Assembly (NCBI GenBank): GCA_029210175.1
Contig: JARGPL010000023.1
Coordinates: forward strand, 1-32,184
DNA length: 32,184 nucleotides
Origin: Minwuia sp.
GTDB lineage: Bacteria > Pseudomonadota > Alphaproteobacteria > Minwuiales > Minwuiaceae
Direction: 5' to 3'
A program made the translations under genes and the position numbers. Shown here piece by piece: positions 3,969-20,388 of the stretch (its first letter is position 1; the number at the start of each line of letters is the position of its first letter). The notes under the pieces were generated by a model, which saw only the letters and a list, made by a program, of their open reading frames with translations, was not told the origin of the DNA and searched no databases.

Positions 3969-5376
3969 TGACACTGGTCAGGGGGCGCCGACACCCGATC
4001 GCCAGAATAGGTGGTCAGCCAGCCTGTCCGATATCCTGCGGGATCCGCTCATGAGGAGCTGGCAGCCCCCTTCAATTATGGAGAGTCCGAAAGCGACAAT
4101 CCGTGCTGCGCGAGAGATACGCAAACGTTGGCCCGAGATTGAACCGAAGGTACGGGAAGAGGATGCAGAATGGATCGCTCGCGACATGGCCAAGCGCCTG
4201 TCGAACGACGACTGGACGGACTGTTTCTGGTCGGATGTCAGGCGATCAGCACGTGCACTGTTCGGGCATGATCTATGGCAGCGTCAGGAGTTTTCGGCTC
4301 TCCGGAGAATGCTGCTCAACCTCATTCGTCCCGATCGCAACAGATCGTATCTCCGGACTACGTATCTGATTTATCTGGAAAGCTGGGACCCCCGATCCGA
4401 ACTGACGGAGGAACTGGCCCAGCGCCTTTCCATTGCCTGGAAGGAAGGACTGTTGAATCTCGAGCCCATTCTTGACGTCTGTGAACTCTTCAACGTCAAG
4501 GAAGCCTCCAAGGACATGGCTGTTTTTCTCTCTCAGAACCATCCGCCACATGAAGCAGTTCGTGCCCTCGGCATACGCCAACCTCACGGCACGGGTTTCA
4601 TGCAGGCCGCTCACGTCAGGTTTGTGGAAAATGCGCGCACTGTCCTGGCGGCAGGCAATGAGCACGCGGTCCGCCAGATGCTCGACTGGATCACCCCCGA
4701 AGGTGATGGCGCGATGCGCGATGGCGCTAATCTGGCAATCAATGCCCTGCTCGAACCATGGAACGACCGAAAACCGTCTGAAGACCTTCGCAAGATGATC
4801 GAAGCGCGTTTGATCGACGCTTACGGCGATCCTCGAACAGAGAAAACTGGGGTTTGGCTTGCCTGCAGCAAGCAGTCACTCTCGGTCATCCGTCGCTGGC
4901 TGACAGAACGAACGTTGCTCGCATTCTTCAATATCATTGACCGAGTTGAACCATCTGATATGTGGCACGATCGACGGGTGTACTGGACCGAAAGATTCAA
5001 AAAGGGGTTTATCCAGGAAGCGTGGGTGGTTCTCAATGCGAGTGGCCAACGAGAGGCTATCGCGCTCGAACGAGAGAATCCCGAACTCAGGCTGGGCAGG
5101 ACCGGGCACAATCATTCCGGTTCGTCAGATCAGAACAAATGCTTCCTCATCATGTTGGACTCAGGACTGCCGGTTATCGAGGGGTCACACACCTACAAGG
5201 TGCACGTATTCAAACCCGATATTGCTCAGCAGATTGACCTCAGACCAAACAGGTTCGATGCGCAGGGTCCGCGAATTTTGAAGCTGAAGTACCCGCAGCA
5301 TGTGGCTCAAATCATTCACACTCAGGGCAGCTGGCAGTGGAAGGTTACTGACCAAATTGCGAAATGGAAGCCATGA
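3961..5376 (+). CDS. zorC: Zorya type I protein ZorC (EH_Signature domain)
   Basis: ZorC is the cytosolic EH-signature protein of type I Zorya, thought to bind DNA and act with ZorD after the ZorAB motor senses phage. This protein has 471 residues, no membrane segment, and a mostly helical middle. The C-terminal third holds the recognisable EH-signature region: WTERFKKGFIQEAWVVL, then a GxxGxNHSGSSDQNKCFLIM stretch, then the EGSHTYKVHVF segment. The identification rests on this C-terminal pattern plus its place between zorB and zorD. It overlaps zorB by 8 bp and zorD by a few bases, so translation is probably coupled. It seems shorter than the E. coli protein, mostly at the N-terminal side. 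Confidence 0.85.
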   Translation: MNDDTGQGAPTPDRQNRWSASLSDILRDPLMRSWQPPSIMESPKATIRAAREIRKRWPEIEPKVREEDAEWIARDMAKRLSNDDWTDCFWSDVRRSARALFGHDLWQRQEFSALRRMLLNLIRPDRNRSYLRTTYLIYLESWDPRSELTEELAQRLSIAWKEGLLNLEPILDVCELFNVKEASKDMAVFLSQNHPPHEAVRALGIRQPHGTGFMQAAHVRFVENARTVLAAGNEHAVRQMLDWITPEGDGAMRDGANLAINALLEPWNDRKPSEDLRKMIEARLIDAYGDPRTEKTGVWLACSKQSLSVIRRWLTERTLLAFFNIIDRVEPSDMWHDRRVYWTERFKKGFIQEAWVVLNASGQREAIALERENPELRLGRTGHNHSGSSDQNKCFLIMLDSGLPVIEGSHTYKVHVFKPDIAQQIDLRPNRFDAQGPRILKLKYPQHVAQIIHTQGSWQWKVTDQIAKWKP

Positions 5377-8300
5377 ACGAGCGGGTTCAAGCGGTGGTCG
5401 ATGTCGGTGATTCAGGCGTGACAATCTCGATGCCGGAGAAATCACCCCGTGGGTTTCTCCGAATGCTTTTACCCGACCGATCGGGACCAGCGAAGATCGA
5501 TGATTGGGTTTCGGAGAACGCGGCGCTTTGTGATGCCGTTGCGGCGCTGCGCCGGTTCGGTGAGGAAGAGGATTGCGTGGTCACCATAGAAGACCAGCGC
5601 ATCAGCGCGGACCACCGGGCAATCGCCAAGCTGAGCCAACATCAGGCCACGGCACTGGGGCTGCCGCCGCTGCCCACCTATGTCTTCGAGGTCGGAACCA
5701 CCGGAAGTATAGGCAAGGACAGTTTCAGGCTCGTCTGCTCATGGCTGAATGGCGACATACCGGTAATGGTCAAACATCAGGGTGCCATTCTGGAAACATC
5801 CGATGGCAAGTTCCGCATTCCGGACCCGATCTTTTCGGCATTGACCCTGGCTGAGGAATTTCATGCTCAAGAGGTTGATGTAACTGAACACTGGTCCGCT
5901 CTGGCACGTTTCCGCCAGTTGCTGGACCCTGACAATGCGCCCTCTCCCGAACAGAACCCCACAGGGCGGGATATTGTCCGGATGGCCAGCAGTTTGCAGC
6001 GGATGAAAATCTACACTGCCTCATCCTTCTCGCTTGCCCTTCGTGACGGTCCGGACGGCGTCAATTTTGATCCCGTGCTCTTTTCTCGTGATGCCGTCGA
6101 GACGGCGATGGAAGGAAACGGTGAGATTTCGGAGACGGATGGCTTGTTGCCGGAAGACCTTCTGCACCGGTTCCAGGGCGAGGGGAGTACCGCATTCGTG
6201 AGTTTCGATCAGGCCAAGCCGACCTACCTTCTCGGCGAAGGCCAGTACCTGCTTCTCGGTCCGGACCTGGAAGCCGCGTTGCGTGTGGTGCGCGAGAAGC
6301 AGAAGGCGAGCCCCAGGGAACGGGAGGTCTTCGCAGCCAATCCCAGGGCCGCCCTTCGAGAGGCCATCGGGCGCGCCTCCGAACCCGAGACAGCCGATGA
6401 TCTGGTCGTCGAAGAAGAAGCCGATGACCGGCTGGCCGCCGTGTTCCAGGAGACCCTTGAGTTCGCCGACCGGGCTATCGGAATCGGGATATGGGAGAAA
6501 CCGAAGTTCGATTTCCTGCCCAAGTCATCGAATGACTGGTTGCCGGAGGTCTTCCCCCTCGTGATCGACGGGAAGCACTTCTTCGTCAAGCCGGATGACG
6601 TCGAACCCCTGCGGACCCAGATCAAGACGGCGATAGAGGAAAACCGCGAGACGGTCGACCATCACGGCGACCCGCTTCCAGCGACGGAAGCCGCGCTCGA
6701 ACAACTCGATCAGGTCCGGGCACGCATCGAGATTGCCACCAGACCAGATGCGGAGGTCCCGAAACCACAGCCAGATACCGATGACCCAACTGAGGCTGGT
6801 CGCCCCCTGGTCATCAAGGTCCACGAGAATTTCGTATCGAACAGCTGGGAACCAAGCAGAGTGGACCGTCGCGATGGCGGGGACTGGTCGATGCCAGAGC
6901 AATTGCTGAGCGAGCCACTGCCCCATCAGGAAAAAGGCATCGCTGCATTGATCGAGGCATGGCGCTCACCACTCCCCGGTTTCCTGCAAGCCGACGATCA
7001 GGGTCTCGGCAAGACGTTTCAGACGCTGGCCTTTCTTGCATGGCTTCGGAACCAGCAGACCCTGGACCGAGATGCCTCCCCAATGTCCGGATTGCCGATC
7101 CTGATCGTCGCACCGACCAGCCTGTTGAGAACCTGGGAGCAGGAAGCGCGAACCCATCTGCGGCCCGGCGCACTAGGTGAGTTGTTTCCCGTCTACGGAA
7201 ACCATCTCAAGTCGCTTCGGACCGGGGCCGGGAAGGAACTTGACGATGGAAGGCCCAGGCTGGACTTGAGCAGACTGCAGAGTTCAGGCGCCGGAAGCGG
7301 TGAGCGCGGATGGTGGGTTCTGACCACTTACGAAACGCTGGCGAACTATCAGCACAGTTTCCACGCGATTCCCTTTGCCGTCGTGGTCTTCGACGAGATT
7401 CAGAAGATCAAGAACCCGGCCACGATCAATGCCCAGGCGGCAAAATCCGTCCAGGCGGATTTTCGCATTGGCCTGACGGGGACACCGATCGAGAACCATG
7501 TCGCCGATCTGTGGGCAATCATGGATGCCATCACGCCGGGCCGTCTGGTCAGCATGAAGGATTTCGCCCGTCATTATGGCGTGGTGACCGAGGATTCCAT
7601 GAAGGATCTGCATGCCCGGCTGTTCGAGCCGCAGGAACACAACGGCAGCAGCTTCCCCCCGCTTGCGATCCGCAGAATGAAGGAGGGCAGCCTCGAAGGG
7701 CTGATGCGCAAGGATTTTCGTATCTATCCGGTCGACATGCCGACGGAGCAGATGGAGGCCTATGACTCAGTCCGGGAAAAACTGCGCGATGGTGCGAAGG
7801 GGTCCGCGCTGAAGCTTCTCCATCACATCCGGTCCGTATCACTGCACCACCAGTCCGGGCGGGGGTTCAACGGCAGCCCGGATGACTTCATCAGCGGGTC
7901 TGCACGACTGGCGACGCTGTTTGAATTGCTTGATCACATCGAGGCACTGGGGGAGCGGGCGCTTGTCTTCATTGAAGATCGCGACATGCAGTACCGGATC
8001 GCCGAACTGATCCGAAGCCGTTTCGGCCTGGCTCAGGTGAGGATCATCAATGGACAGACAACGATTCCCAGACGGCAGGCGCATGTCGAGGCCTTCCAGC
8101 ACCATCTCGCGCAAGATCGAGGCTTCGATGTCATGGTCCTTGGGCCCAAGGCGGCCGGCGTGGGGCTCACCCTGACCGCGGCGACCCATGTGATCCATCT
8201 GAGCCGGTGGTGGAACCCTGCGGTAGAGGAACAATGCAATGACCGGATCTACCGGATCGGTCAGAAACGGGATGTGACCATTCATCTCCCGATGGCCGTG

Positions 8301-8843
8301 CATCCGGGCCACAAGGAAAAGTCCTTCGACTGCATTCTGAACGAATTGATGAAACGAAAGCGACTGCTGGCGCGGGCTGCTCTATGGCCTCCGACGGATC
8401 AGGACAGCGATGTGGAAGTCCTGATGTCTGGCCTCAGCGGCTCGAGTCCGCTTGACCTGACCGAGATCGACGGTTTCGACTGGCAGAGGTTCGAACAATG
8501 GGTTCTGGACCAATGCGCGAAGACCGGTGAGTGGGACTGTTTCGAAACCAGGGCTTCCGGAGACGGGGGAGCCGACGTCGTACTGAAACACAGGCAACGC
8601 CCGGATAGCTGGAGCATCATCCAGGTCAAGCACAGTGGTCGGACCGACAGGAAGCTTGGTCGGTCAGCGGTCGAAGACACGTTGCGCGCCCGGGCTTCCT
8701 GGAACAAACCGAACCCGCAACTCGCCGTTGTCACGAACATCCGCGAGTTCGATGAGGAGGCAATGAAGCTTGCCCGTGCCGAGAATGTCCGGCTCGTCAG
8801 CCGTGGCCACCTGAGCCTCTGGCCGCGCCACATCCTGGCGTGA
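5373..8843 (+). CDS. zorD: Zorya type I effector ZorD (SNF2 helicase with Mrr-like nuclease end)
   Basis: ZorD is the SNF2-type translocase/nuclease that degrades invading DNA in type I Zorya. With the ATGA start at 5373, which overlaps the zorC stop and is preceded by GGAAG, it has 1156 residues; an in-frame ATG also exists at 5364. Residues 1 to about 500 form the family-specific N-terminal region. The SNF2 core has Walker A ADDQGLGKT (540-548), Walker B DEIQ (674-677), GLTGTPIENHVADLW, and the motif V-VI stretch GLTLTAATHVIHLSRWWNP with RIYRIGQKR. The last ~115 residues are an Mrr-like restriction fold with GGADVVL and IIQVKHS (Gln1084, Lys1086 of a QxK active site). Walker A and B differ slightly from the common DEMGLGKT/DEAH. 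Confidence 0.93.
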   Translation: MNERVQAVVDVGDSGVTISMPEKSPRGFLRMLLPDRSGPAKIDDWVSENAALCDAVAALRRFGEEEDCVVTIEDQRISADHRAIAKLSQHQATALGLPPLPTYVFEVGTTGSIGKDSFRLVCSWLNGDIPVMVKHQGAILETSDGKFRIPDPIFSALTLAEEFHAQEVDVTEHWSALARFRQLLDPDNAPSPEQNPTGRDIVRMASSLQRMKIYTASSFSLALRDGPDGVNFDPVLFSRDAVETAMEGNGEISETDGLLPEDLLHRFQGEGSTAFVSFDQAKPTYLLGEGQYLLLGPDLEAALRVVREKQKASPREREVFAANPRAALREAIGRASEPETADDLVVEEEADDRLAAVFQETLEFADRAIGIGIWEKPKFDFLPKSSNDWLPEVFPLVIDGKHFFVKPDDVEPLRTQIKTAIEENRETVDHHGDPLPATEAALEQLDQVRARIEIATRPDAEVPKPQPDTDDPTEAGRPLVIKVHENFVSNSWEPSRVDRRDGGDWSMPEQLLSEPLPHQEKGIAALIEAWRSPLPGFLQADDQGLGKTFQTLAFLAWLRNQQTLDRDASPMSGLPILIVAPTSLLRTWEQEARTHLRPGALGELFPVYGNHLKSLRTGAGKELDDGRPRLDLSRLQSSGAGSGERGWWVLTTYETLANYQHSFHAIPFAVVVFDEIQKIKNPATINAQAAKSVQADFRIGLTGTPIENHVADLWAIMDAITPGRLVSMKDFARHYGVVTEDSMKDLHARLFEPQEHNGSSFPPLAIRRMKEGSLEGLMRKDFRIYPVDMPTEQMEAYDSVREKLRDGAKGSALKLLHHIRSVSLHHQSGRGFNGSPDDFISGSARLATLFELLDHIEALGERALVFIEDRDMQYRIAELIRSRFGLAQVRIINGQTTIPRRQAHVEAFQHHLAQDRGFDVMVLGPKAAGVGLTLTAATHVIHLSRWWNPAVEEQCNDRIYRIGQKRDVTIHLPMAVHPGHKEKSFDCILNELMKRKRLLARAALWPPTDQDSDVEVLMSGLSGSSPLDLTEIDGFDWQRFEQWVLDQCAKTGEWDCFETRASGDGGADVVLKHRQRPDSWSIIQVKHSGRTDRKLGRSAVEDTLRARASWNKPNPQLAVVTNIREFDEEAMKLARAENVRLVSRGHLSLWPRHILA

Positions 8844-9002
8844 CGGCGCGTTGCCAACCTGAGCGACCTTCGGCCCTGCATTGGTGGCATGCGTGTCCCA
8901 TCCGCAGGCCCAGCCGTTATTCCGTTGCCATTCCGCCGCCCGCCGCGCCATTCTTGACCCACGCATTACCGCGCGAGCCACAGGTGGGGAGACAATCACA
9001 GG

Positions 9003-10541
9003 ATGCTGACAGGCGCCATTCGCAGCCAGGTTGACCAGATATGGAATGCCTTCTGGTCGGGCGGCGTATCCAACCCGCTCTCGGTCATCGAACAGATCAC
9101 CTATCTGCTGTTCATCAAGCGCCTGGACGACCTGCACACGCTGGAGGAACGCAAGGCGGAGGCGCTGGGCCAGCCGATGGCGCGCCGCATCTTTCCGGAA
9201 GGCACCGACGAGAGGGGCCGCGCGTACGAGGACATGCGCTGGTCGCGTTTTCTGAACTTCGAACCGCGGGACATGATGACCGTGGTCGACGAGCATGTCT
9301 TTCCCTTCCTGCGCGACCTCGGCGAACAGGGCTCCAGCTACGGCACCCACATGCGCGATGCGCGGCTGGGCATCCCGAACCCCAACCTGCTGGCCAAGGT
9401 CGTGCAGATGCTCAACGACATCCCCATGGACGACCGCGATACCAAGGGCGACGTCTACGAGTACATGCTGGGAAAGATCGCCAGCGCCGGGCAGAACGGG
9501 CAGTTCCGCACACCGCGCCACATCATCAGCCTGATGGTCCACCTGATGCGGCCAACGCCGGAGGACGTGATCTGCGACCCGGCGGCAGGCACCTGTGGTT
9601 TTCTCATCGCGGCGGGGGAATACCTGCGCGACAACCACCCGGAGATGCTGCGCGACGACCGGCTGCGCCAGCACTTCCACACCCAGATGTTCCACGGCCA
9701 TGACTTCGACGCCACGATGCTGCGCATCGGCGCGATGAACATGACGCTGCACGGGGTGGAAAACCCCGACATTTCCTATCGCGACAGCCTGGCGGAGGAA
9801 CATGGGGCGGAGGTCGGCAGCTATTCCCTGATCCTCGCCAATCCGCCCTTCGCCGGTTCGCTGGATTACGACACCACCGCGAAGGACCTGCTGAAGATCG
9901 TCAAGACGAAGAAGACCGAGCTGCTGTTCGTCGCCCTGTTCCTGCGGCTGCTGCGCACCGGCGGCCGGGCGGCGGTGATCGTGCCCGACGGCGTGCTGTT
10001 CGGGTCCAGCAAGGCGCACAAGGAGATCCGCCGCATGCTGGTGGAGGACCACAAGCTGGAGGCGATCATCAAGCTGCCCTCCGGCGTCTTCCGCCCCTAT
10101 GCGGGCGTGTCCTGCGCCATCGTCCTGTTCACCAGGACCGGCGTCGGCGGCACCGGGAATGTCTGGTTCCATGACATGCAGGCGGACGGCTTCTCGCTGG
10201 ACGACAAGCGCACACCGCTGCTGGACGCCGATAAGCTCGGCCCGGTGCCTGCGACGGCGCTGAGCCCGGAAGATCATGCGAAGAACAACCTGCCCGATAT
10301 CCTGACCCGGTGGGCGTCACTGGAGGCCGAAGCCGAGCGTCCGCGCACCGCGCAGAGCTTTCTTGTTCCGGCGGCGGATATCATTGCCACTGGCAGCTGG
10401 GACCTGTCGCTGAACCGCTACAAGGAGACCGAGCACGAGGAGATCGACCACCAGCCCCCTGCCGAGATCATCGCCGAACTGCGCGCCATCGAGGCTGAGA
10501 TCACCGAAGGGCTGAACCGGCTTGAGGAAATGCTCGGATGA
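9003..10541 (+). CDS. hsdM: Type I restriction-modification DNA methyltransferase subunit HsdM
   Basis: HsdM is the N6-adenine methyltransferase subunit, which with HsdS protects host DNA and with HsdR forms the restriction complex. This protein has 512 residues, normal for the family. An N-terminal HsdM_N domain (QVDQIWNAFWSGGVSNPLSV, then ITYLLFIKRLDDL) is followed by the catalytic domain with SAM motif I DPAAGTCGFL (from Asp192) and catalytic motif IV NPPF (280-283). FRTPRHIISLMVHLM is the usual block before motif I. ATG 9003 follows a GGGGAG ribosome-binding stretch. It starts the hsd locus 159 bp after zorD and overlaps hsdS by ATGA. Confidence 0.97.
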   Translation: MLTGAIRSQVDQIWNAFWSGGVSNPLSVIEQITYLLFIKRLDDLHTLEERKAEALGQPMARRIFPEGTDERGRAYEDMRWSRFLNFEPRDMMTVVDEHVFPFLRDLGEQGSSYGTHMRDARLGIPNPNLLAKVVQMLNDIPMDDRDTKGDVYEYMLGKIASAGQNGQFRTPRHIISLMVHLMRPTPEDVICDPAAGTCGFLIAAGEYLRDNHPEMLRDDRLRQHFHTQMFHGHDFDATMLRIGAMNMTLHGVENPDISYRDSLAEEHGAEVGSYSLILANPPFAGSLDYDTTAKDLLKIVKTKKTELLFVALFLRLLRTGGRAAVIVPDGVLFGSSKAHKEIRRMLVEDHKLEAIIKLPSGVFRPYAGVSCAIVLFTRTGVGGTGNVWFHDMQADGFSLDDKRTPLLDADKLGPVPATALSPEDHAKNNLPDILTRWASLEAEAERPRTAQSFLVPAADIIATGSWDLSLNRYKETEHEEIDHQPPAEIIAELRAIEAEITEGLNRLEEMLG

Positions 10542-11701
10542 TCACACGCGAAAGCGTTAGGGGCATCTACCCTGTCGAACCTCTAGGCGAAGTCGTCCAG
10601 TTCTTGGATCACAAGCGCCGCCCCGTGAAGCAGTCTGAGCGGGTCGAAGGGTTGTATCCGTATTTTGGAGCCAACGGTCAACAAGGCACCATCGACGACT
10701 ACATTTTTGATGAACCGCTGGTGCTCGTTGCGGAAGACGGGGGACATTTCGACGCCCCCGAACGAGGTATCGCGTATCAAATCGAAGGTAAGACGTGGGT
10801 TAATAATCATGCACACGTTCTTCGACCAAATTCGAAAATCGACATACGATTCCTGACACGAGTTCTCGAGAATTATGATGTCCGCCCGTTCATTTCTGGA
10901 ACCACTCGGGCAAAACTAACAAAGGGGCAGGCTTCAAGAATTGAAATCCCCCTCCCGCCGCTGGAGGAGCAGAGGCGGATTGCGGCGATCCTGGATCAGG
11001 CGGACGCGCTGCGCCGCCTCCGCCGCCGCGCCCTCGACCGCCTCAACACCCTCGGCCAGGCGATCTTCCATGAGATGTTTGGAGCATTTCATGATGGATT
11101 TGAAGGATGGCCAACGCAGACGCTAGCTGATGTCATTGTCGACGCTAAGATTGGTGCTGTGCGTGGCTCAAAGGATATGTCTGACGAAGCACCCGTTCCC
11201 TACTTGCGCATGAATTCGATCGGCATAGACGGCAGCCTCCGCTTAAGTGGATTAAAACGCGTTGAGGCAAGCGATACAGAATTAGAAATTTACTCATTAA
11301 GAAAGGGTGATTTTCTATTTAATACTCGAAATTCCCGCGAACTAGTAGGTAAGACCGCCGTCGTTCATCAAGATTTTGACGGAATTTACAATAACAATAT
11401 TTTGCGCTGCCGCTTCAGCAAAATGCGAGTTAATGCTGATTTTATAGATTCATTCTTGAGGACTCGCAAGGGCAGATCATCTTTGGACAATGTCAAATCT
11501 GGAACAACAAGTGTGTTCGCCATTTATCAGAAATCACTGATGACGCTTCTTATACCTTGCCCTCCGATGAAGAAGCAGCAAGAATTCTCCAAGCAACTTG
11601 AACGCCTGAAAGCCGAAGAGGAAGCAACCCGCATCTCTAATGAAAAAGCTCAATGCTTGTTCGCCTCCCTCCAACACCGCGCCTTCAGGGGCAGTCTCTA
11701 A
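10538..11701 (+). CDS. hsdS: Type I restriction-modification specificity subunit HsdS
   Basis: HsdS sets the DNA target of the type I complex. Its 387 residues show two target-recognition domains: about 8-135 (with LYPYFGANGQQGTIDDYIF and VLVAEDGGHF) and about 190-340 (with YLRMNSIG and LRKGDFLFNTRNS). They are separated by the conserved helical spacer at about 137-183 (LPPLEEQRRIAAILDQADAL) and followed by a C-terminal helix pair. The GC content is mosaic: the spacer DNA (10945-11085) is very GC-rich, while both recognition halves, especially 11240-11560, are visibly AT-rich. This is the signature of swapped recognition domains. The start overlaps the hsdM stop as ATGA, so the two are probably coupled. 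Confidence 0.95.
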   Translation: MITRESVRGIYPVEPLGEVVQFLDHKRRPVKQSERVEGLYPYFGANGQQGTIDDYIFDEPLVLVAEDGGHFDAPERGIAYQIEGKTWVNNHAHVLRPNSKIDIRFLTRVLENYDVRPFISGTTRAKLTKGQASRIEIPLPPLEEQRRIAAILDQADALRRLRRRALDRLNTLGQAIFHEMFGAFHDGFEGWPTQTLADVIVDAKIGAVRGSKDMSDEAPVPYLRMNSIGIDGSLRLSGLKRVEASDTELEIYSLRKGDFLFNTRNSRELVGKTAVVHQDFDGIYNNNILRCRFSKMRVNADFIDSFLRTRKGRSSLDNVKSGTTSVFAIYQKSLMTLLIPCPPMKKQQEFSKQLERLKAEEEATRISNEKAQCLFASLQHRAFRGSL

Positions 11702-11703
11702 AA

Positions 11704-12561
11704 ATGCGCGGGGAACTCATAAGCGTCTTGTCCGAAATGTGGTGTCAGTTCTGGAAGAAGCTTGCTTATCACAAGGACGCCTCGAGCGATACCTTTTGCG
11801 ATCTTTACCGTGAGCTGAACACGCCTCGGGTGGTTCCGCTCGATCCTGCCACCGAACTCGCCGACATCGTCGATGACCGGGAACAGGCCCGCGTCGGCTT
11901 TCGCGACACGGAGGCTGCGGCCCTAAAGGATGAAGTCGTGGTTCTCGAATTCCTGGAACGCGCGCGCACGGTGATCGAGGATTTCGGCAGCAAGGCCCTG
12001 ACGAATCAATACTTCAATCTGGTGCGCGATCTTCTCGACAGATACAGCCTGCGTTACGTTCGGCGCCGTCCTTTCAGCCTGCACCTGACCTTGCGGGGGT
12101 TATTCGCACGCCTTGTGCGCGACTTGCGGCAGATCACATCACAGGACTCCGCGCTCGCCGCGCCGACGCATGATTTCAAGGGGTGTGTTCGAGACCTGAA
12201 GGACGATCAGTCCGCAAGAAAGATCAAGCAGTGCTTCGCCTCCCGGTTCAATCTACCGGAGGCGCTTCGCAAACAGCATCCCGACTTCGTGGCATACAAT
12301 TCAACAGCCAAACGCGCGACGAACACGTTTGAGGCAATGTGCGACAAGACAATTACATGCCCAAACGAAGCCATCAAGGATTCTGCCAAGGGAATCCATC
12401 GCCTCGCCGGTGACCAACCCGGCATCCGGCACAGCGGCAACCAAGCAGGCAAGCTCCGTAGAATTGACATGCGGGACCTGATTTCCGTGACGATCTTGCT
12501 GGCAGGTTTCTCGCCATACTTCAGTCAGGCCTTCAGCGCTGACGCAATTGGTTCAGGTTGA
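11704..12561 (+). CDS. Unrecognised protein inside the type I RM locus; possible Abi-like C-terminus
   Basis: The product has 285 residues and I do not recognise its family. The ATG at 11704 lies 2 bp after the hsdS stop, with CAGGGGC as ribosome site; an upstream ATG at 11653 would overlap hsdS and lacks such support. The N-terminal part is helical and charged, with no membrane segment or signal peptide. Near the C-terminus, IHRLAGDQPGIRHSGNQ followed by a hydrophobic helix (ISVTILLAGFSPYFSQAF) faintly resembles the Arg/His-Gly plus helix layout of abortive-infection C-terminal domains. That resemblance is weak inference. Tight coupling to hsdS argues for a role in the same defence locus. 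The codon bias looks genuine for this genome. Confidence 0.7.
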   Translation: MRGELISVLSEMWCQFWKKLAYHKDASSDTFCDLYRELNTPRVVPLDPATELADIVDDREQARVGFRDTEAAALKDEVVVLEFLERARTVIEDFGSKALTNQYFNLVRDLLDRYSLRYVRRRPFSLHLTLRGLFARLVRDLRQITSQDSALAAPTHDFKGCVRDLKDDQSARKIKQCFASRFNLPEALRKQHPDFVAYNSTAKRATNTFEAMCDKTITCPNEAIKDSAKGIHRLAGDQPGIRHSGNQAGKLRRIDMRDLISVTILLAGFSPYFSQAFSADAIGSG

Positions 12562-12604
12562 AGCGATGCAGCGCCAGTTCTCAGCCGTCAATTGAGGCCC
12601 CAAC

Positions 12605-13159
12605 ATGATCAAGCAGAATCGATGGACCAGGGGAAATCGCGATTTCCGGTTGCCGACGATGCCCGATGAGCAGCCACGCCATGGATGCGGGTTTTCCAGG
12701 ACAACCTTTGATCCGGACGTCGGCGAAGAGGCATACGTGCTTTTCTGCGAAGACCCTCCACATGCCAGGGCGCTTGCCCAAATCCGACCGATGACCTTGA
12801 TCGCCCACAAGGGCATCGCAGCCACACCCCACGGGTTGGTGGCCTACATCGTCTGGCAGATTGCGGCGGGTTCCAGCCAAGAGTCCTTCGTCGAGACATT
12901 CCTGAATCCGTTCAAGATAGACACACTGCAACTAGTGTCGGACGCAGCCAATCAAACGCATCTGAAATTTCTGACAATTGATCGATCCGATCAATCCGTG
13001 GTTTCGATGACCGATTTTGAGAACATATTCGAGCTTGACCATTTTCTGTTCCAAATGATCATGCATATCGGGTACGCGAAGCCCACAGAATTTGCAGAAG
13101 CGACTTCGTTCATCATGAATACTGTGGAAATCGAGAAACTTGTCGAGGATGCTATCTGA
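12605..13159 (+). CDS. Small unrecognised protein inside the type I RM locus
   Basis: The product has 184 residues and no family I recognise. It starts at ATG 12605 after a GAGG ribosome site and ends at TGA 13157-13159. It appears soluble, without membrane helices or signal peptide. The middle has mixed alpha/beta character and the C-terminal third is acidic (SMTDFENIFELDHFLFQMIM). No nuclease, helicase or HTH motif is visible. It lies 43 bp after the preceding unknown gene and 195 bp before the GIY-YIG gene, all in one orientation, so co-transcription with hsdMS is likely. Function unknown; it could be a regulator, inhibitor or small subunit of the neighbouring system. Confidence 0.6.
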   Translation: MIKQNRWTRGNRDFRLPTMPDEQPRHGCGFSRTTFDPDVGEEAYVLFCEDPPHARALAQIRPMTLIAHKGIAATPHGLVAYIVWQIAAGSSQESFVETFLNPFKIDTLQLVSDAANQTHLKFLTIDRSDQSVVSMTDFENIFELDHFLFQMIMHIGYAKPTEFAEATSFIMNTVEIEKLVEDAI

Positions 13160-13354
13160 TGATGAACCGATCTGCCTTCCGTTCGATCAATTTTCCTGAC
13201 CTTGCCGGCCTCTGATGCGTGTCGTGACTTGATGCAGCCGACACATGGCCCAACGGCTCCGAACCAGACCGCACCGGCCCCTGCAGGGCTGGGGCAGACA
13301 CATACCGACAACCGGTCGCGTTCAGGCGGCCGCAACCAGGAGAACTGAACCGAT

Positions 13355-14224
13355 ATGCAGGTATTCTTCACCTACATCTATTCCCGTGACGATACCTACA
13401 CCTATGGCGATCAGGAAAATCAGGGCTGGCCGCTAACATTCGGGGCAGAGACCGCACGGTCCATGGCGCGCAAGATGATCACGACAGGCGACCTCGTCTT
13501 CGGGATTGTCAGCAGCACCCCCGGTCATGACGCTGTCGTCCCGGAGAAATTCAAGGGCCGAGTTGTATCCGCCTGGCAGATCACGCGGCAGAACGTCCTG
13601 CTGACCGACTATGACCTCGAACTCAGCGACTTCGACCTGCAATGGCCTGTCGCACTGCAGCCGATCCGAGCGTGGGAGATCGCGGCGCCGCCCCGGTTTC
13701 GTGAGCAGGACGGTTACGACAGTACGACACACACGCCCCGGTCCATAAGTTCTGTCGAGACAGTGAACGAGACACTGGCCCGAAGCCTGATTGCCACCCT
13801 GCGGGACCAGGGGAACGAAGTGCGGCTGCCACGCTTCAGGTATCCGGCGATGGAACAGCGAAACGCGCAACTGCGCCAACGTCATCCCTTCAGGATCGAG
13901 GGCCATGTGGTCGCGCCTGTCGATGCGGAAAAGCCGAACCACGTCTACATTGCGACACTGGGCAAGGGATCGCGCACGCTGAAGATCGGACACTCAAGCG
14001 ATCCCGCCGAGCGGGTAGCGAGTCTCAACAAGTACCGCCTGAGTTCCGAGCCGCAATGGATCCTCCATACGGCCCAGCCGATGGGCACTGTACAGCAGGC
14101 AATCAAGGCGGAAGCCACGCTGGGCGAGTTGTTCGCGAAATACCGGACAGAGCAGAACAACAATGAGGTCTTCGTCGGGCTTGGTGCCATCGATGTCCTG
14201 ACACGATTGGCCACGATGCGATGA
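13355..14224 (+). CDS. GIY-YIG/T5orf172-type nuclease-like protein with a possible PUA-like N-terminal domain
   Basis: The product has 289 residues. The C-terminal domain (about 195-275) fits the T5orf172/GIY-YIG pattern: VYIAT (197-201), then LKIGHSSDPAERVASLNKY with Lys210, Gly212 and a following Arg, and ending with an acidic NNNEVF (Glu271) where the metal-binding Glu is expected. The N-terminal half (FFTYIYSRDDTY, then TGDLVFGIVSSTP and FKGRVVSAWQI) has the strand-rich look of a PUA/ASCH/EVE-type fold. Such folds often read modified bases; that part is inference. The ATG follows an AGGAG site at about 13 bp. It lies 61 bp upstream of the GmrSD-like gene, suggesting a joint role against modified phage DNA. 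Confidence 0.7.
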   Translation: MQVFFTYIYSRDDTYTYGDQENQGWPLTFGAETARSMARKMITTGDLVFGIVSSTPGHDAVVPEKFKGRVVSAWQITRQNVLLTDYDLELSDFDLQWPVALQPIRAWEIAAPPRFREQDGYDSTTHTPRSISSVETVNETLARSLIATLRDQGNEVRLPRFRYPAMEQRNAQLRQRHPFRIEGHVVAPVDAEKPNHVYIATLGKGSRTLKIGHSSDPAERVASLNKYRLSSEPQWILHTAQPMGTVQQAIKAEATLGELFAKYRTEQNNNEVFVGLGAIDVLTRLATMR

Positions 14225-14285
14225 AACAGGATTGCCGCTCCGCCCGAATGGCCTGCATCTGCCCCTCCAGCAAGGGACCTCACCC

Positions 14286-16385
14286 ATGAAAGCCACCGAA
14301 GCGCAGTTCCTGGCGTTCCTGAGGAAATCGTCCCAGTTCGTCATCCCGATCTACCAGCGAACCTATTCCTGGACGGCCCGGGAGTGCCGGCAGCTCTGGG
14401 ACGACGTGGTGCGGGCGGGGGGCGATGACGGCATCGATGTGCATTTCGTCGGCTCGATCGTCTACATTGAGGACGGGCTGTCGCAGGTGTCGCTGCAGGC
14501 ACCGCTGCTGGTCATCGACGGTCAGCAGCGGCTGACCACGGTGACGCTGCTGCTGGCGGCCCTGGCGGAGGCGCTGGGGGATGAGGAAGTCATCGACGGG
14601 TTCAACGCGCGAAAGGTCCGCAACTACTACCTGCTCAATCCGGAGGAATCGGGTGAACGCCAGTTCAAGCTGCTGCTGTCCCAGGGCGATAGGGCGACCC
14701 TGACATCCATCGTCGCCGGGCAGGACCTGCAGGGTGAACGATCGATCACGGTGTCGGAGAACTTCGCCCTGTTTCGGGAATTGATCGCCGGGCGCAAGGG
14801 CGATCTGGCCGTTGTCTGCCGCGGCCTCGCCAAGCTGGTTGTCGTGGACATCGCGCTGAACCGCGACCATGACAATCCGCAACTGATCTTCGAGAGCATG
14901 AACTCCACGGGGCGGGAACTCAGCCAGGCCGACCTGATCCGCAACTTCATCCTGATGGGGCTGGAACCGGAACTGCAGACCCGGCTGTATCGGGACTATT
15001 GGCGCCCGATGGAGGTGGCTTTCGGGCAGCAGGCCTATACCACGCATTTCGATGCCTTCATGCGTCACTACCTCACTGTCCAGACGGGCAATATCCCGAA
15101 ACTGTCCGACGTCTATGATGGGTTCAAGACCCACGCCCGGACGTTCGGTTCGTCGGCGGCGGATATCGAGCGGCTGGTGCGGGATGTGCGGGACTTTGCG
15201 CGGTACTTCTGTGCCATGGCCCTTGGCGCAGAACAGGAACCCGACCTGAAACGTGCGTTCCAGGATCTCGTCGAGTTGAAGGTGGATGTCGCCTATCCGT
15301 TCCTGCTCGACCTCTACCGCGACTACGCTGCTGGTCAGCTCGACAAGACCGGGTTCCTGGCGGCAATCCGCCTTGTGGAGGCCTATGTTTTCCGCCGGGC
15401 AATCAGTGCGATCCCGACCAATTCGATGAACAAGACCTTCGCCACCTTCGCCCGGTCGGTTGTGAAGGAGCGGTATCTGGAAAGCATAAAGGCGCATTTC
15501 CTCGGCCTGCCATCCTATCGCCGGTTTCCACGCGACGACGAGTTCCGGCGCGATATCCAGACCCGCGACCTCTACAATTTCCGCAGCCGGAGCTACTGGT
15601 TGCGGCGGTTCGAGAACTTCGGGCGCAAGGAACGTGTCCCGGTTGATGAATATACCATCGAACACATCATGCCGCAGACCCTCGACCTTTCGCAGGCCTG
15701 GCGCGATGCACTGGGGCCGGACTGGGAGCAGGTGCAGAAGAACTGGCTGCACACGCTCGGCAACCTGACCCTGACAGGCTACAACTCCGAATATGGTGCC
15801 CGGCCATTCCCGGAAAAGCGTGACATGTCCGGCGGCTTCGGTATCAGCCCGCTGAAGCTGAATGCCGGGCTGGGCCAGCTCGAAACCTGGAACGAAGGTA
15901 GCATCCGATCACGGGCGGCGACGCTGGCAGGCGCAGCGGTCGATGTCTGGGCGGCACCTTCGCTTCCCGAAGATGTCCTTGCTGCGTACAGCGTGAAGAA
16001 ACCTGCTGCCAGCAGCTACACGCTCGACCATTACCCACAGCTTGCCCAGCCGGGCCTCGCTGAATTGTTTGCTGCCTTCCGCAAGGAAGTACTGGCACTG
16101 GACCCCTGCGTGACGGAGGAATGCCTGAAGCTCTACATCGCCTACAAGGCCGAAACCAATTTCGTCGATGTCGTGCCGCAGGCCAGCCGATTGCGCCTGT
16201 CACTCAACATGCGCTTTGCCGACATCGACGACCCGAAGGGGCTGTGCAAGGACATTTCCGGGTTGGGTCGCTGGGGCAACGGCGATGCGGAGATCGGCCT
16301 CAGCAGCCTGGATGAACTGCCTTATGTGCTGGGCTTGGTGCGCCAGTCGCTGGAGCAGCAACTCGGGAGCGGAGATGCGGCATGA
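14286..16385 (+). CDS. GmrSD-like DUF262/DUF1524 protein with a DUF5655-like C-terminus
   Basis: This looks like a single-chain relative of GmrSD/BrxU type IV enzymes, which cut DNA carrying modified (glucosylated or hydroxymethylated) cytosines using nucleotide energy. With ATG 14286 it has 699 residues. The N-terminal DUF262 domain shows IPIYQRTYSW and the nucleotide-site motif VIDGQQRLTT (76-85). The DUF1524 HNH-type nuclease domain has EHIMPQ (His460) and LHTLGNLTLTGYNSEYG (Asn493). Residues beyond about 580 resemble DUF5655 (LKLYIAYK, then a LRLSLNM strand). The stop overlaps the hsdR start as ATGA, so it is translationally coupled to the restriction subunit. An earlier in-frame start at 14232 has no ribosome site. 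Confidence 0.9.
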   Translation: MKATEAQFLAFLRKSSQFVIPIYQRTYSWTARECRQLWDDVVRAGGDDGIDVHFVGSIVYIEDGLSQVSLQAPLLVIDGQQRLTTVTLLLAALAEALGDEEVIDGFNARKVRNYYLLNPEESGERQFKLLLSQGDRATLTSIVAGQDLQGERSITVSENFALFRELIAGRKGDLAVVCRGLAKLVVVDIALNRDHDNPQLIFESMNSTGRELSQADLIRNFILMGLEPELQTRLYRDYWRPMEVAFGQQAYTTHFDAFMRHYLTVQTGNIPKLSDVYDGFKTHARTFGSSAADIERLVRDVRDFARYFCAMALGAEQEPDLKRAFQDLVELKVDVAYPFLLDLYRDYAAGQLDKTGFLAAIRLVEAYVFRRAISAIPTNSMNKTFATFARSVVKERYLESIKAHFLGLPSYRRFPRDDEFRRDIQTRDLYNFRSRSYWLRRFENFGRKERVPVDEYTIEHIMPQTLDLSQAWRDALGPDWEQVQKNWLHTLGNLTLTGYNSEYGARPFPEKRDMSGGFGISPLKLNAGLGQLETWNEGSIRSRAATLAGAAVDVWAAPSLPEDVLAAYSVKKPAASSYTLDHYPQLAQPGLAELFAAFRKEVLALDPCVTEECLKLYIAYKAETNFVDVVPQASRLRLSLNMRFADIDDPKGLCKDISGLGRWGNGDAEIGLSSLDELPYVLGLVRQSLEQQLGSGDAA

Positions 16386-19300
16386 GCCAGTTCACTTTCC
16401 TGCGCGATGATTTTCCGGCCCTCTTCGATTTCGCGGAGAAGGCCGAACACATGGCACTTTCCGATGCGCGGAGTTCATGCTTCTACGCCCGCCTGACGCT
16501 GGAGGCGGCGGTCGACTGGCTCTACAGGGCGGATGCCACGCTGAAATCGCCGTACCAGGAAACGCTTGCCGCACGTATCCACGAGGCGACCTTTCGCCAG
16601 CTTGTCGGCACGGCGCTGGTCACGAAGGCGCAGATCATCAAGGACCATGGCAACCGCGCGGTTCACGACAAGCGCCCGGTCGCGAAGAAGGCCGCCGTCA
16701 CCACCCTGCGCGAACTTTTTCACCTGCTCTACTGGCTCGCCCGCACCTACAGCAAGGATGCAACGCCTGCCGCGGGCCTGCAGTTCGATCCAGCGCGGCT
16801 GGAAGCGACGATCAACGTCACTGCCAGCACCGTCGAACAGATCCGCAAGCTGAGGGAGGAGCATGACAGGCACCTCGCTGACCTGGCGGTGGAACGCAAG
16901 ACACGGCTGTCCGTCGAGGACGAGCGACTGAAGCTCGAGGCGAGCGTGCAGGCCCTCCAGGCGGAGATCGCAGCGGTCAAGAAGGCCAACCAGGCCGTGC
17001 CGGACAATCACGACTATGACGAGGCAACGACGCGAGATGCCTTCATCGACCTGTTGTTGCACGAAGCAGGCTGGCCGCTGGATCAGGAGCAGGACATCGA
17101 GTATCCGGTGGTTGGAATGCCGAGCACCAGCGGTGACGGTTTCGTCGACTATGTGCTGTGGGGTGACGACGGGAAGCCGCTGGCCCTCGTAGAGGCCAAG
17201 CGATCACGCAAGGATGCCATGGTCGGCCAGCAGCAGGCAAAGCTGTACGCAGACTGCCTGGAGACGATGCACGGCAGACGCCCGGTGATCTATTGCACCA
17301 ATGGCTACCAGCACTGGCTCTGGGATGACCGGATGTATCCGCCCCGGGCCGTCAGCGGTTTCATGAAGAAGAGCGAACTCGTGCTGCTGCACCAGCGCCG
17401 CACGACCCGCCGCAAGCTGGATACTGTCCCGGTCGATGAGGCGATCGCCGGCCGTTACTACCAGACCCGCGCGATTCGGCGGGTCGGGCAGACCTTCGAG
17501 ACCGATCGACAGCGCCGTGCCCTGCTGGTCATGGCAACCGGGTCTGGCAAGACCAGAACGGTTGTGGGATTGATCGACCAGTTGATGCGGGGCAACTGGG
17601 TCCGGCGGGTACTGTTCCTGGCCGACCGGATCGCGCTGGTCAGACAAGCACACGGTGCCTTCAAGACGCACCTGCCGTCGTCGCCCAGCGCCAACCTGCT
17701 GGAGCGGCATGACGCATCGAAGAATGATCACAACGGCGCGCGTGTCCTGCTGTCCACCTACCCCACCATGATGCGCATGATCGACGACCTCAACGGCGCG
17801 GAGAGGCGCTTCGGCGCCGGTCATTTCGACCTGGTGGTGATCGACGAGGCACACCGCTCCGTCTACCGGAAATATCGGGCAATCTTCGACTATTTCGATT
17901 GCCTGCTGATCGGGCTGACCGCCACCCCGCGCGATGAAAGCGACCACGACACCTACGCCCTGTTCCAGCTGCAGACGGGGGTTCCGACCGACTACTACGA
18001 ACTGGACCAGGCCGTCAGCGATGGGTTCCTGGTACCACCCGAGGCGATCTCCGTACCACTCAAGTTCCAACGGGATGGCATCCGCTACGATGACCTTTCT
18101 GATGAGGAAAAGGAGAGATGGGACGCCCTCGACTGGAGCGATGGCGACGACTCGCCTGACGCCGTGTCTGCTTCCGATGTGAACAAGTGGCTGTTCAACA
18201 CCGATACCGTTGACAAGGTGCTGGAACACCTGATGACCAACGGGGTGAAGGTGCAGGAGGGGAGCAGGCTGGGCAAGACGATCATCTTCGCCAAGAACAG
18301 CCGCCATGCGCGTTTCATAGCGGAGCGCTTCGACATCAACTATCCGCACCTGAAAGGGCAGTTCGCCCGGGTGATCGATTACAGCGTCGACTATGCCCAG
18401 TCCCTTATCGATGACTTCTCCGATGCCGGAAAGGCACCACACATCGCGATATCGGTCGACATGCTGGATACCGGTATCGACATCCCGGAAGTGGTCAACC
18501 TGGTGTTCTTCAAGATCGTTCGGTCCCGCACGAAATTCTGGCAGATGATCGGTCGCGGCACACGCCTGTCACCAGACCTGTTCGGGCCTGGCGAGCACAA
18601 GGACCGCTTCCGGGTGTTTGACTTCTGCCAGAACTTCGAATTCTTCAGCCAGAACCCAACGCTCGTTGATGGCAGCAATGGTGCCTCGATCGACGAGAAG
18701 CTGTTCTGTGCCCGTATCGACCTGATGGGCACCATTGACGGCATTGTCGATGAGATTGTTCCTCCCTCCGGTTCTTCTGCAGCACCGGGCCTGAACGAAG
18801 GAGCCAATCAGGCACCGTTCGTCGCGCAGCCGGGCCTCGAAGCCCTTCGGGAAAGTCTCGAACAGCGTCTCTTCGAAGAGGTATCAGCCATGAACCTCGA
18901 CAACTTCATCGTCCGCAACAGGCGTCGGGAGGTGGAACGGTTTCAGGTCCGGGCGAACTGGCAGGATCTGAACGCCGAAGACCAGGAGACCCTGAAGGAC
19001 CATGTCGCCGGATTGCCCAGCGCCTTCACTGACGATGACCTTCAGGCCAGGCAGTTCGATTACCTTGTACTGCTGGCGCAGCTGGCGCTGCTCAAGGGTG
19101 GTACAACGTTCCCCAGGTACCAGGAACGCATGCAGACCATCGCATCTGCCCTGGAAGACCTGGGTGCCATCCCGATGGTGGCGGCTCAGATGACACTCAT
19201 TCTCGATATCCTGACGCCCGATTGGTGGCAGGACGTGACCGCATCAATGCTGGAAGAGGTGCGGCAGAAACTGCGCGGCCTGGTACGGCTGATCGAACCC

Positions 19301-19858
19301 GCCTCGCGCAAGATCGTTTATACCGATTTCCAGGACGAGATCGGAGCAGGGGTCACGTTCGACCTGCCCGATGTGAGCGTAAACGCGGATCTCGGCCGCT
19401 TCCGGGAAAAGGTGCGGCAGTTCCTCAAGGAGCACGAAGATCACATCGTGCTGCAGAAACTCCGGCGCAATGAACAATTGACGCCGCAGGATATCGAGGA
19501 ACTGGAACGAATGTTCCTTGAGGCCGGTATCGCTGGCAGCGAGGACCTGAAGAGACTGCAATCCGAGGGTGGATTGGGAATCTTCCTGCGGTCACTTGTC
19601 GGGCTTGATCGCGAAGCGGCCAAGGCTGTACTTGGAACATTCGTCGCCGACAAGTCGCTGAACGCCAATCAGATCGAGTTCGTCAACATGATCATCGACC
19701 ACCTGACGGATCAGGGAATCATGGAACCCTCCATGCTCTACGAGAGCCCATTCACAGATTTCGACGATCAGGGTGTCAGCGGACTGTTCCCGATGGCGGA
19801 TATCCATGAACTGATATCTCTCCTGAAAGACATTCGACAGCATGCAATCGCGTCCTGA
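16382..19858 (+). CDS. hsdR: Type I restriction-modification endonuclease/translocase subunit HsdR
   Basis: HsdR pumps DNA with ATP and cuts it when the complex meets unmethylated targets. This protein has 1158 residues. The N-terminal ~115 residues resemble DUF4145 (SSCFYARLTLEAAVDWLY, then DHGNRAVHD), followed by a short coiled coil (about 155-205). The PD-(D/E)XK nuclease has Asp256 (FVDYVLW) and EAKR (Glu271, Lys273). The SF2 motor has MATGSGKT (384-391), DEAH (488-491), GLTATPRDE and the DTGIDIPEVVNL/QMIGRGTRL motifs. The last ~250 residues fit the EcoEI-type R C-terminal domain, suggesting a type IB-like enzyme. It overlaps the GmrSD-like gene by ATGA and ends the hsd locus. Confidence 0.97.
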   Translation: MSQFTFLRDDFPALFDFAEKAEHMALSDARSSCFYARLTLEAAVDWLYRADATLKSPYQETLAARIHEATFRQLVGTALVTKAQIIKDHGNRAVHDKRPVAKKAAVTTLRELFHLLYWLARTYSKDATPAAGLQFDPARLEATINVTASTVEQIRKLREEHDRHLADLAVERKTRLSVEDERLKLEASVQALQAEIAAVKKANQAVPDNHDYDEATTRDAFIDLLLHEAGWPLDQEQDIEYPVVGMPSTSGDGFVDYVLWGDDGKPLALVEAKRSRKDAMVGQQQAKLYADCLETMHGRRPVIYCTNGYQHWLWDDRMYPPRAVSGFMKKSELVLLHQRRTTRRKLDTVPVDEAIAGRYYQTRAIRRVGQTFETDRQRRALLVMATGSGKTRTVVGLIDQLMRGNWVRRVLFLADRIALVRQAHGAFKTHLPSSPSANLLERHDASKNDHNGARVLLSTYPTMMRMIDDLNGAERRFGAGHFDLVVIDEAHRSVYRKYRAIFDYFDCLLIGLTATPRDESDHDTYALFQLQTGVPTDYYELDQAVSDGFLVPPEAISVPLKFQRDGIRYDDLSDEEKERWDALDWSDGDDSPDAVSASDVNKWLFNTDTVDKVLEHLMTNGVKVQEGSRLGKTIIFAKNSRHARFIAERFDINYPHLKGQFARVIDYSVDYAQSLIDDFSDAGKAPHIAISVDMLDTGIDIPEVVNLVFFKIVRSRTKFWQMIGRGTRLSPDLFGPGEHKDRFRVFDFCQNFEFFSQNPTLVDGSNGASIDEKLFCARIDLMGTIDGIVDEIVPPSGSSAAPGLNEGANQAPFVAQPGLEALRESLEQRLFEEVSAMNLDNFIVRNRRREVERFQVRANWQDLNAEDQETLKDHVAGLPSAFTDDDLQARQFDYLVLLAQLALLKGGTTFPRYQERMQTIASALEDLGAIPMVAAQMTLILDILTPDWWQDVTASMLEEVRQKLRGLVRLIEPASRKIVYTDFQDEIGAGVTFDLPDVSVNADLGRFREKVRQFLKEHEDHIVLQKLRRNEQLTPQDIEELERMFLEAGIAGSEDLKRLQSEGGLGIFLRSLVGLDREAAKAVLGTFVADKSLNANQIEFVNMIIDHLTDQGIMEPSMLYESPFTDFDDQGVSGLFPMADIHELISLLKDIRQHAIAS

Positions 19859-20313
19859 CAGTTACGGGTGATCACGCCTGCTGGGGTTTGTGACTGCAGC
19901 GCCAGCGGTCTCAGGTCAGGCTTTGCCGATGACTTGCATGCCAGCGATTCGATTCCCTCTATTTGCCTGATGCAGACCTGAGGAAGCTCGTATTCCAAAC
20001 GAGACCGGAAGTGAGCTCATTCTGATCGAACTCCGGCCCAAGGTACTGATATTGAACGCGGTCCTTTTTTCACCGGAATCCGATTGACCTGCAGGTTCGC
20101 GTCAACCCGCTCAAGACACCAGGAACGCGCATAAATCCTCATGCAACACACAGTCAGGATTCCGAATGATGTGCCTGCAAAGACGGGCAACAACTTCAGC
20201 GTCGTTCGCCATGACCCGCTGCATCAAGGTGCCCCATGGGTGCCCCGAGAATTAAGAAGCCCATCCGGAAAATCACCAGATACCGAAATCACTAACAATT
20301 TCATTAGGATAAA
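19859..20313. other. Gene-free stretch between hsdR and tRNA-Val
   Basis: There is no convincing gene in these 455 bp. Small open frames exist on both strands, but none has a ribosome site or a recognisable sequence. The region is less GC-rich than its surroundings and lies directly at the 3' side of the tRNA, where integrase genes and attachment sites of islands are usually found. No integrase fragment could be recognised. It contains the GGTGCCCC direct repeat described separately. Confidence 0.7.
20228..20246. repeat. Direct repeat GGTGCCCC x2, 11-bp period
   Basis: Two copies of GGTGCCCC (20228-20235 and 20239-20246) are separated by ATG, placing them 11 bp apart on one face of the helix. 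They lie 68 bp from the 3' end of tRNA-Val. Paired short repeats beside a tRNA attachment site can be integrase arm or excisionase sites; that role is only inferred here. Confidence 0.45.
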
Positions 20314-20388
20314 TGGTGGGCGCGGCTGGGATTGAACCAGCGACCCCTACGATGTCAACGTAGTGCTCTCCCACTGAGCTACGCGCCC
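20314..20388 (-). tRNA. tRNA-Val (GAC anticodon), CCA encoded
   Basis: Read on the minus strand, the 75-nt gene folds as a full cloverleaf. The acceptor stem is GGGCGCG/CGCGCCC with an unpaired A and encoded CCA. The D arm is GCTC-AGTGGGA-GAGC. The anticodon stem CTACG/CGTAG encloses loop TTGACAT, giving anticodon GAC. The T arm is GCTGG-TTCAATC-CCAGC. The 3' end points toward the defence island, which fits use of this gene as an integration site. A good promoter lies just upstream. Confidence 0.97.

Follow-up and report, generated by a model that had tools for sequence, protein, structure and literature searches.

Why does a type I restriction–modification operon carry a GmrSD-like nuclease gene, together with three further genes, between its specificity and restriction genes, and do the products act as one machine or as separate defences? 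We addressed this question for a 32,184-nucleotide stretch of DNA from Minwuia sp. (assembly GCA_029210175.1, contig JARGPL010000023.1; hereafter referred to as the window), in which hsdM and hsdS are followed by genes here called g1 and g2, a GIY-YIG nuclease-like gene and a DUF262–DUF1524–DUF5655 gene (hereafter D), and then by hsdR. An earlier note on this DNA had proposed a single composite system made up of the six or seven proteins. Here we find that related operons carry D, other genes or nothing at the same junction. We propose that the hsdS–hsdR junction is a slot for swap-in cargo, that D is a self-contained enzyme and that the operon is carried by an element inserted at a tRNA-Val gene, a reading that we hold, as a whole, at a probability of about 0.72. 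The layout, the intact motifs, the conserved overlap with hsdR and the differing cargo of related operons can be read directly from the sequences.

Organization of the hsd operon

An open reading frame (ORF) and Pfam check bore out the gene order described in the earlier note, with all seven genes on the + strand. The hsdM gene (9003–10541) encodes the methyltransferase subunit (PF02384, 183.5 bits; PF12161, 66.3 bits), with intact DPAAGT and NPPF motifs, and overlaps by 4 bases with hsdS (10538–11701), whose product, the specificity subunit, matches PF01420 (Methylase_S) over two stretches. The insert begins 2 bases past the hsdS stop codon with g1 (11704–12561), and continues with g2 (12605–13159), the gene for the GIY-YIG (T5orf172) nuclease-like protein (13355–14224; PF10544, 30.3 bits) and D (14286–16385; PF03235, 113 bits; PF07510, 78.9 bits; PF18899, 36.8 bits). 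The D stop codon overlaps with the hsdR start codon in the sequence ATGA (16382–16385); both end junctions had been read correctly before. The restriction subunit encoded by hsdR (16382–19858) has a DUF4145 N terminus and an EcoEI-type C terminus (PF04851, 128.8 bits; PF08463, 92.7 bits; PF13643, 34.8 bits), and its GSGKT, DEAH, TATP and D-x-EAK motifs are intact. The window thus holds a type I restriction–modification system with hsdM, hsdS and hsdR present and their motifs preserved.

The packing is not tight throughout, as a 195-base gap, unmentioned in the earlier note, separates g2 from the GIY-YIG gene. The G+C content by codon position is coding-like in all four insert genes, including the orphan ORF g2 (0.55/0.38/0.63). 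Promoter and terminator predictions in the window showed no excess over shuffled sequences; we infer co-transcription through the operon from the sequence. The most probable start codon of D is the ATG at 14286 and not the TTG at 14232, which would add 18 residues, because homologues align from that methionine.

Differing cargo between hsdS and hsdR

Loci with a related HsdR were drawn from the scan for D, from 289 genomes of the class and from plasmids (12 of 28 plasmid matches opened, plus Ruegeria, giving 13 loci), and gene neighbourhoods were read from profile searches of six frames. Across the 28 such loci, including the window, the hsdS–hsdR gap contains D in 13, g1 alone in 2, Ymh alone in 1, other genes in 7 and nothing in 5. 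Where D is present, its companions differ. The window has g1, g2, the GIY-YIG gene and D; three loci have Ymh, g1 and D (L014, L015 and L020), a Methanosarcina locus has Ymh and D (L092) and two have g1 and D (L069 and L117). In L052, g1 is followed by further ORFs, including a nucleotidyltransferase, and then D, and in four loci D is the sole gene (L017, L018, L037 and L028); the sequence of the remaining D locus (L030) does not cover the upstream part. The gene g1 by itself fills the slots of L109 and L110, and Ymh that of L141. Elsewhere the slot holds a 169-residue protein (L129), XisH, XisI and one ORF (L130), VapC and a small ORF (L137), a small ORF with helix-turn-helix and PIN proteins (L139) or other genes on the opposite strand (L134, L135 and L138), and in the empty slots (L131, L132, L133, L136 and L140) hsdS and hsdR are separated by −1 to 32 bases. 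The L129 protein looks 'GIY-YIG-like' and a 147-residue L052 protein 'HEPN-like' by eye only; Pfam gave nothing for either.

The junction with hsdR is constant. D directly precedes hsdR in 13 of 13 D loci, the window and two Methanosarcina among them, with an overlap of 4 bases or 1 when hsdR is taken to begin at the start of its profile match. This stop/start overlap is beyond chance. Where g1 (2/2) or Ymh (1/1) stands alone, it likewise overlaps with hsdR by 4 bases, so that a stop/start overlap is found in all 16 loci in which D, g1 or Ymh precedes hsdR; in nine loci without any of these genes, the gap to hsdR ranges from −1 to 76 bases. The order Ymh, g1, D is kept wherever two or more of them co-occur. 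The search for this gene order in other genomes, which the earlier note had called for, thus revealed that the embedding of D in hsd operons recurs in other bacteria and archaea.

Phylogenetic trees suggest that the cargo has been exchanged repeatedly. On an HsdR tree with 27 rows, the presence of D requires 6 changes, at least 5 of which are forced by starred branches, and that of g1 also requires 6. Supported close relatives differ in their cargo: L037 (D) from L141 (Ymh), L117 (g1 and D) from L129 (another gene), and L109 (g1) from L017 and L018 (D). At the DNA level, L017 and L109 are 84% identical across hsdM, and 79% identity resumes 2 bases before the hsdR start codon and extends to the hsdR end; between these blocks, 92 bases inside hsdS are alike and nothing more. 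On the D tree, the slot label requires 8 changes, at least 5 of them forced. As judged from these sequences, such turnover would hardly be expected of seven parts bound in an obligate complex.

Sequence and predicted structure of D

D contains a third domain, DUF5655 (Pfam PF18899), beyond DUF262 (GmrSD_N) and DUF1524 (GmrSD_C). Its DUF262 domain has the QR, DGQQR and FxxxN motifs and its DUF1524 domain a His-Me/HNH motif, which make D a GmrSD-family-like enzyme by its domains, and the QR, DGQQR, FxxxN, EHIMP and LGNL motifs are all intact. Among 82 D proteins, DGQQR and EH[IV][ML]P occur in 82 each, F[ED]S[ML]N[ST] in 81, LGN[LI]T in 77 and QR[TNS]Y in 73. The PADLOC models Orf5 and HEC-06 match D with 609.6 and 205.4 bits, respectively.

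The solved structures nearest to D by sequence profile are those of DndI (2e-24) and then SspE (3.2e-12). An AlphaFold model of D, computed from a 32-sequence alignment (predicted local distance difference test score (pLDDT) 85.6, predicted template modelling score 0.75), shares the DUF262–DUF1524 fold with DndI (9jfl; Z 19.9 over 514 residues, root-mean-square deviation (r.m.s.d.) 6.8). The match to SspE (6jiv and 7drs) has Z 16.5 and r.m.s.d. 20.4 for the whole chain, and Z 15.0 and r.m.s.d. 3.4 for the C-terminal part of SspE alone, and the match to BrxU has Z 11.8 and r.m.s.d. 20.1. In both sequence profile and predicted fold, BrxU is more distant from D than DndI and SspE are. The DUF5655 region resembles YdhG/DUF1801-type folds with a middling score (Z 8.9 over 107 residues), and no paper on DUF5655 surfaced in a single literature search.

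DndI restricts DNA without the host phosphorothioate mark, and its Y25 is required for phosphorothioate sensing, as is Y30 of SspE, according to the available parts of PMC11662687. Y23 of D aligns with DndI Y25, at a position within a motif region common to the wider family. The predicted kinship with DndI and SspE supports a role for D as a modification-sensing nuclease and leaves the sign of its response unfixed. An attack of D on modified cytosines is unproven, because these nearest solved relatives restrict DNA that lacks the host mark.

D outside the slot

To survey the surroundings of D, we compiled 89 loci (the best 80 of 134 from genome contigs, 2 from further genomes and 7 from plasmids) and sorted them by distance limits of our own choice, the neighbour counts standing without a random-position control. 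In 16 loci D is embedded in an hsd operon and in 23 it has hsd genes on its own strand no more than 3.5 kb away; 10 have hsd genes near or on the opposite strand, 16 have no hsd gene within 4 kb on both sides and 24 were uninformative. Its place among hsd genes varies: it may follow hsdR, separate hsdM from hsdS or separate hsdS from hsdR, and the operons represent at least two HsdR families. Some operons with a different HsdR family carry D between hsdM and hsdS (L026 and L086) or between hsdS and hsdR (L072 and L077). In L041, L045 and L048, a stretch of about 110 codons resembling an hsdR end precedes D, with a 972-residue protein upstream; their close relatives L036, L039 and L042 have a full hsdM–hsdS–hsdR set there.

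Phosphorothioation is unlikely to be the usual partner of D, since dndC is rare: it exceeded the cut-off in 2 of 21 D genomes, both from the set without hsd neighbours. Phosphorothioation genes were absent among the eleven island proteins scanned, a scan that excluded the rest of the window's genome and sspABCD.

The other cargo genes

The g1 gene belongs to a conserved family without a name, with homologues 36–49% identical. It had no match in PADLOC, PHROGs or NCBIfam and only Pfam matches below the cut-off. Its L109 homologue matched NNH2 in Pfam, also below the cut-off (18.9 bits, cut-off 27), and we did not accept this match. All 8 full-length g1 homologues are located between hsdS and hsdR or between hsdS and D. 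A 65-residue g1-like stretch (46 bits) lies immediately before D in L074 (4123–4317), where no hsd gene is found within 4 kb; g1 and D may travel there as a pair, or the stretch may be a remnant. The g1 model, built from six sequences, was too poor for a fold search (pLDDT 39.4). In a comparison bearing on a HEPN identity of g1, it gave no profile match to the Ymh protein of the slot, which is labelled HEPN (hhalign probability 0.1), and the g1 model is too poor for a verdict. Among solved structures, a designed helical repeat protein matched g1 at 1.5e-5 and the rest at chance level, which we read as a reflection of helical composition. A role of g1 in abortive infection is a guess.

Searches of 288 other genomes, of plasmids and of the fetched loci revealed no g2 homologue, and g2 had no Pfam match. 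None of 288 other genomes contained a homologue of the full-length GIY-YIG protein, and the only match in plasmids covered 59 residues. In the Pfam search, DUF262 was absent from g1, g2 and the GIY-YIG protein.

Zorya genes and a probable tRNA-Val element

A complete Zorya type I system precedes the hsd operon on the same strand and ends 159 bases upstream of hsdM. It comprises zorA, encoding the motor protein (699–2834; PADLOC ZorA1, 537.6 bits; NCBIfam NF033914, 208 bits, cut-off 190), zorB, encoding a MotB-like protein (2841–3968; ZorB1, 268.1 bits), zorC, encoding an EH_Signature protein (3961–5376; ZorC1, 311 bits; PF15611, 116.5 bits), and zorD, encoding an SNF2 helicase with an Mrr-like nuclease domain (5364–8843; ZorD1, 1103.6 bits; PF00176 and PF04471), all on the + strand. 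PMC11411939 describes a Vibrio cholerae island, VPI-2, that likewise combines a predicted Zorya I system with GmrSD-like genes inside a type I operon.

Downstream of hsdR lies a tRNA-Val(gac) gene (20314–20388), and the Rfam matches were to tRNA only. The 55-base 3′ part of this tRNA on the − strand (20311–20365), the likely right end of the element, is repeated on another contig of the same genome (G000:C41:6489-6543, locus L107), where it lies in no complete tRNA gene and within 200 bases of a gene for a tyrosine integrase (PF00589; L107 4940–6301). The same locus encodes a REase-ARP protein (548–1525) and, beyond the repeat, an MmeI-type restriction-methylase (7555–11019). Homology to the window in four fetched loci of the same genus, from a search of six other genomes, starts at 20298–20311, at the 3′ end of tRNA-Val. 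A relative (G082; L108 14139–14191) has a 53-base copy about 10.8 kb from its own tRNA-Val. By their sequences and positions, these 53–55-base repeats mark a tRNA-Val(gac) integration hotspot in two genomes of the genus, and an element that inserted there most likely carries both the Zorya and the hsd genes. A short ORF beside the tRNA gene (20236–20295), whose first residues look integrase-like by eye, is possibly a remnant of an earlier insertion.

Discussion

In the model that we favour, HsdMS would mark self DNA and HsdR would cut unmarked DNA, and the slot, which here carries g1, g2, the GIY-YIG gene and, last before hsdR, D, would lend the operon promoter to its cargo. D would act as a self-contained, nucleoside triphosphate (NTP)-driven, modification-sensing nuclease with no need of HsdR, so that one operon would both restrict unmethylated DNA through HsdR and protect against DNA whose modification state is different. 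The g1 and GIY-YIG proteins would be separate candidate defence effectors. Translation of the cargo would be coupled to that of hsdR, with the overlap tying D and HsdR levels, and the hsd operon and Zorya I would travel together on the element at the tRNA-Val gene.

Several observations weigh against this model. D is always last before hsdR and its overlap is invariant (13/13), which is more constancy than a passenger needs. Apart from the window, the D loci (12 of 13) all came to light via D itself, so the share of D is not a frequency, and L109 and L110 were first reached via g1. In the samples chosen without regard to cargo, the class genomes with a strong HsdR match other than the window (n = 4) had D in one, g1 in two and Ymh in one, and D occupied the slot in 1 of the 13 opened plasmid loci. 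All five empty slots accompany a more distant HsdR (41–49% identical to that of the window), and none was found among the 17 loci with an HsdR at least 53% identical. Loci with D cluster on the HsdR tree (only 12 of 500 shuffles needed as few changes), so that part of the cargo distribution reflects inheritance along with the operon. The HsdR and D trees are quick ones with long branches, and their starred forks merit less trust. Of the 13 genomes in which D lacks hsd neighbours, 10 contain HsdM_N somewhere, compared with 67 of 289 in the class sample (p 0.0001), a result that is a hint of a tie only, as the groups differ in taxonomy. The g1-like piece in L074 hints at a tie between g1 and D, and contigs C41 and C22 are unjoined in the assembly, so that the ends of the element are inferred. 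The L074 piece and the way in which the loci were found slightly lowered our confidence.

A single machine made of HsdMSR, D, g1, g2 and the GIY-YIG protein would account for the single strand, the tight junctions at both ends and the D–hsdR overlap in 13 of 13 loci, and the restriction of full-length g1 homologues to the slot and the L074 piece beside D speak for it as well. We nevertheless consider it highly unlikely, because one HsdR lineage has slots that contain D, g1 or Ymh by itself, other genes or none at all, the cargo turning over while hsdM and hsdR stay related; because D lacks hsd genes within 4 kb in 16 of 89 loci; and because g2 and the full-length GIY-YIG protein were absent from the 288 other genomes and the plasmids searched. 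The earlier interpretation therefore holds in one part, in that the hsd operon houses a GmrSD-like enzyme whose position suits expression together with hsdR, and finds no support as to the composite of six or seven proteins. Neutral hitch-hiking lies at the opposite extreme: the junction would be a recombination-prone, non-disruptive landing place, and the function of the cargo would be unlinked to the operon. The varied cargo and the opposite-strand genes of L134, L135 and L138 suit this explanation, but the overlap of D, g1 or Ymh with hsdR in 16 of 16 loci and their fixed order do not, and we give it hardly any credence.

D might also be licensed by the self mark. As a DndI/SspE-like enzyme, it would be restrained on HsdMS-marked DNA and cut unmarked phage DNA, such that one methylase would serve two nucleases. 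The ranking of DndI, then SspE, as nearest to D by sequence profile and fold, the alignment of the phosphorothioate-sensing Y25 of DndI with D Y23 and the recurrence of D, in various positions, alongside hsd operons from two or more HsdR families all argue for such licensing. However, 16 of 89 loci have D without hsd neighbours, and 3 of 13 such genomes gave no HsdM_N match anywhere, including one isolate genome, that of Buttiauxella (L063). Moreover, this tyrosine may be unspecific, as it belongs to the region of the QR motif that the wider family shares, and the fold order comes from one predicted model, with r.m.s.d. values of about 20 for whole-chain SspE and BrxU. We regard licensing by the self mark as unlikely, though worth keeping in view. 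In a specific form, N6-methyladenine placed by HsdMS would stimulate the D NTPase and release D from self DNA, while unmarked phage DNA would be cut; we judge this form to be a long shot.

Type I-embedded GmrSD-like enzymes have already been published as RloF and TgvAB, to which the window adds another, with a sharper account of the slot. In the portions available to us, PMC11411939 reports that TgvAB is embedded in a type I operon on V. cholerae VPI-2 and suggests complementary restriction of modified and unmodified phages; that its protection against Tevenvirinae is independent of HsdR nuclease activity; and that tgvAB alone protects 10- to 100-fold more weakly against several phages than the whole cluster, possibly owing to expression. 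The likeness to the window is a GmrSD-like enzyme inside a type I operon, with complementary restriction proposed for TgvAB. As described there, however, TgvAB consists of two proteins (TgvA with DUF262 only, TgvB with DUF262 and DUF1524), whereas the window slot has one DUF262 gene, encoding a single fused protein with DUF5655, and adds g1, g2 and the GIY-YIG cargo. RloF, from the type I loci of Campylobacter jejuni (Miller 2005, as cited in the available parts of PMC4619093 and PMC11411939), is a DUF262 protein between hsdS and hsdR, and resembles D in that position. PMC4619093 also reports that, among the defence genes near GmrSD genes, those of type I systems are the most frequent, with published enrichment. 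Another known system occupies the same slot, but with different cargo and a dedicated repressor there (RptR was not sought in the window). DndI and SspE are DUF262 plus DUF1524 enzymes and the best sequence and fold matches of D, although they pair with phosphorothioation genes. HEC-05 (BrxU) and HEC-06 are embedded in Hma clusters, and BrxU occurs with BREX, as cited in the available text of PMC11411939; the HEC-06 model and the BrxU fold match D, but these contexts are Hma and BREX, not hsd. The literature parts examined contain no description of g1 or of a DUF262–DUF1524–DUF5655 clade in the slot, and one may exist elsewhere.

The vague notion of a composite system thus gives way to a testable rule for this type I lineage, with the hsdS–hsdR junction as a slot whose cargo can be exchanged and whose overlap with hsdR is conserved. 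The slot may serve as a hunting ground for new effectors such as g1, a conserved family that found no database name here. D stands between two opposite modes of DUF262 enzymes, the attack on marked DNA and the sparing of it. Licensing by HsdMS, if true, would mean that base methylation, like phosphorothioate, can serve DUF262 enzymes as a licensing self mark, and it would account for both the recurrence of D with different hsd families and its constant place against hsdR in the lineage of the window.

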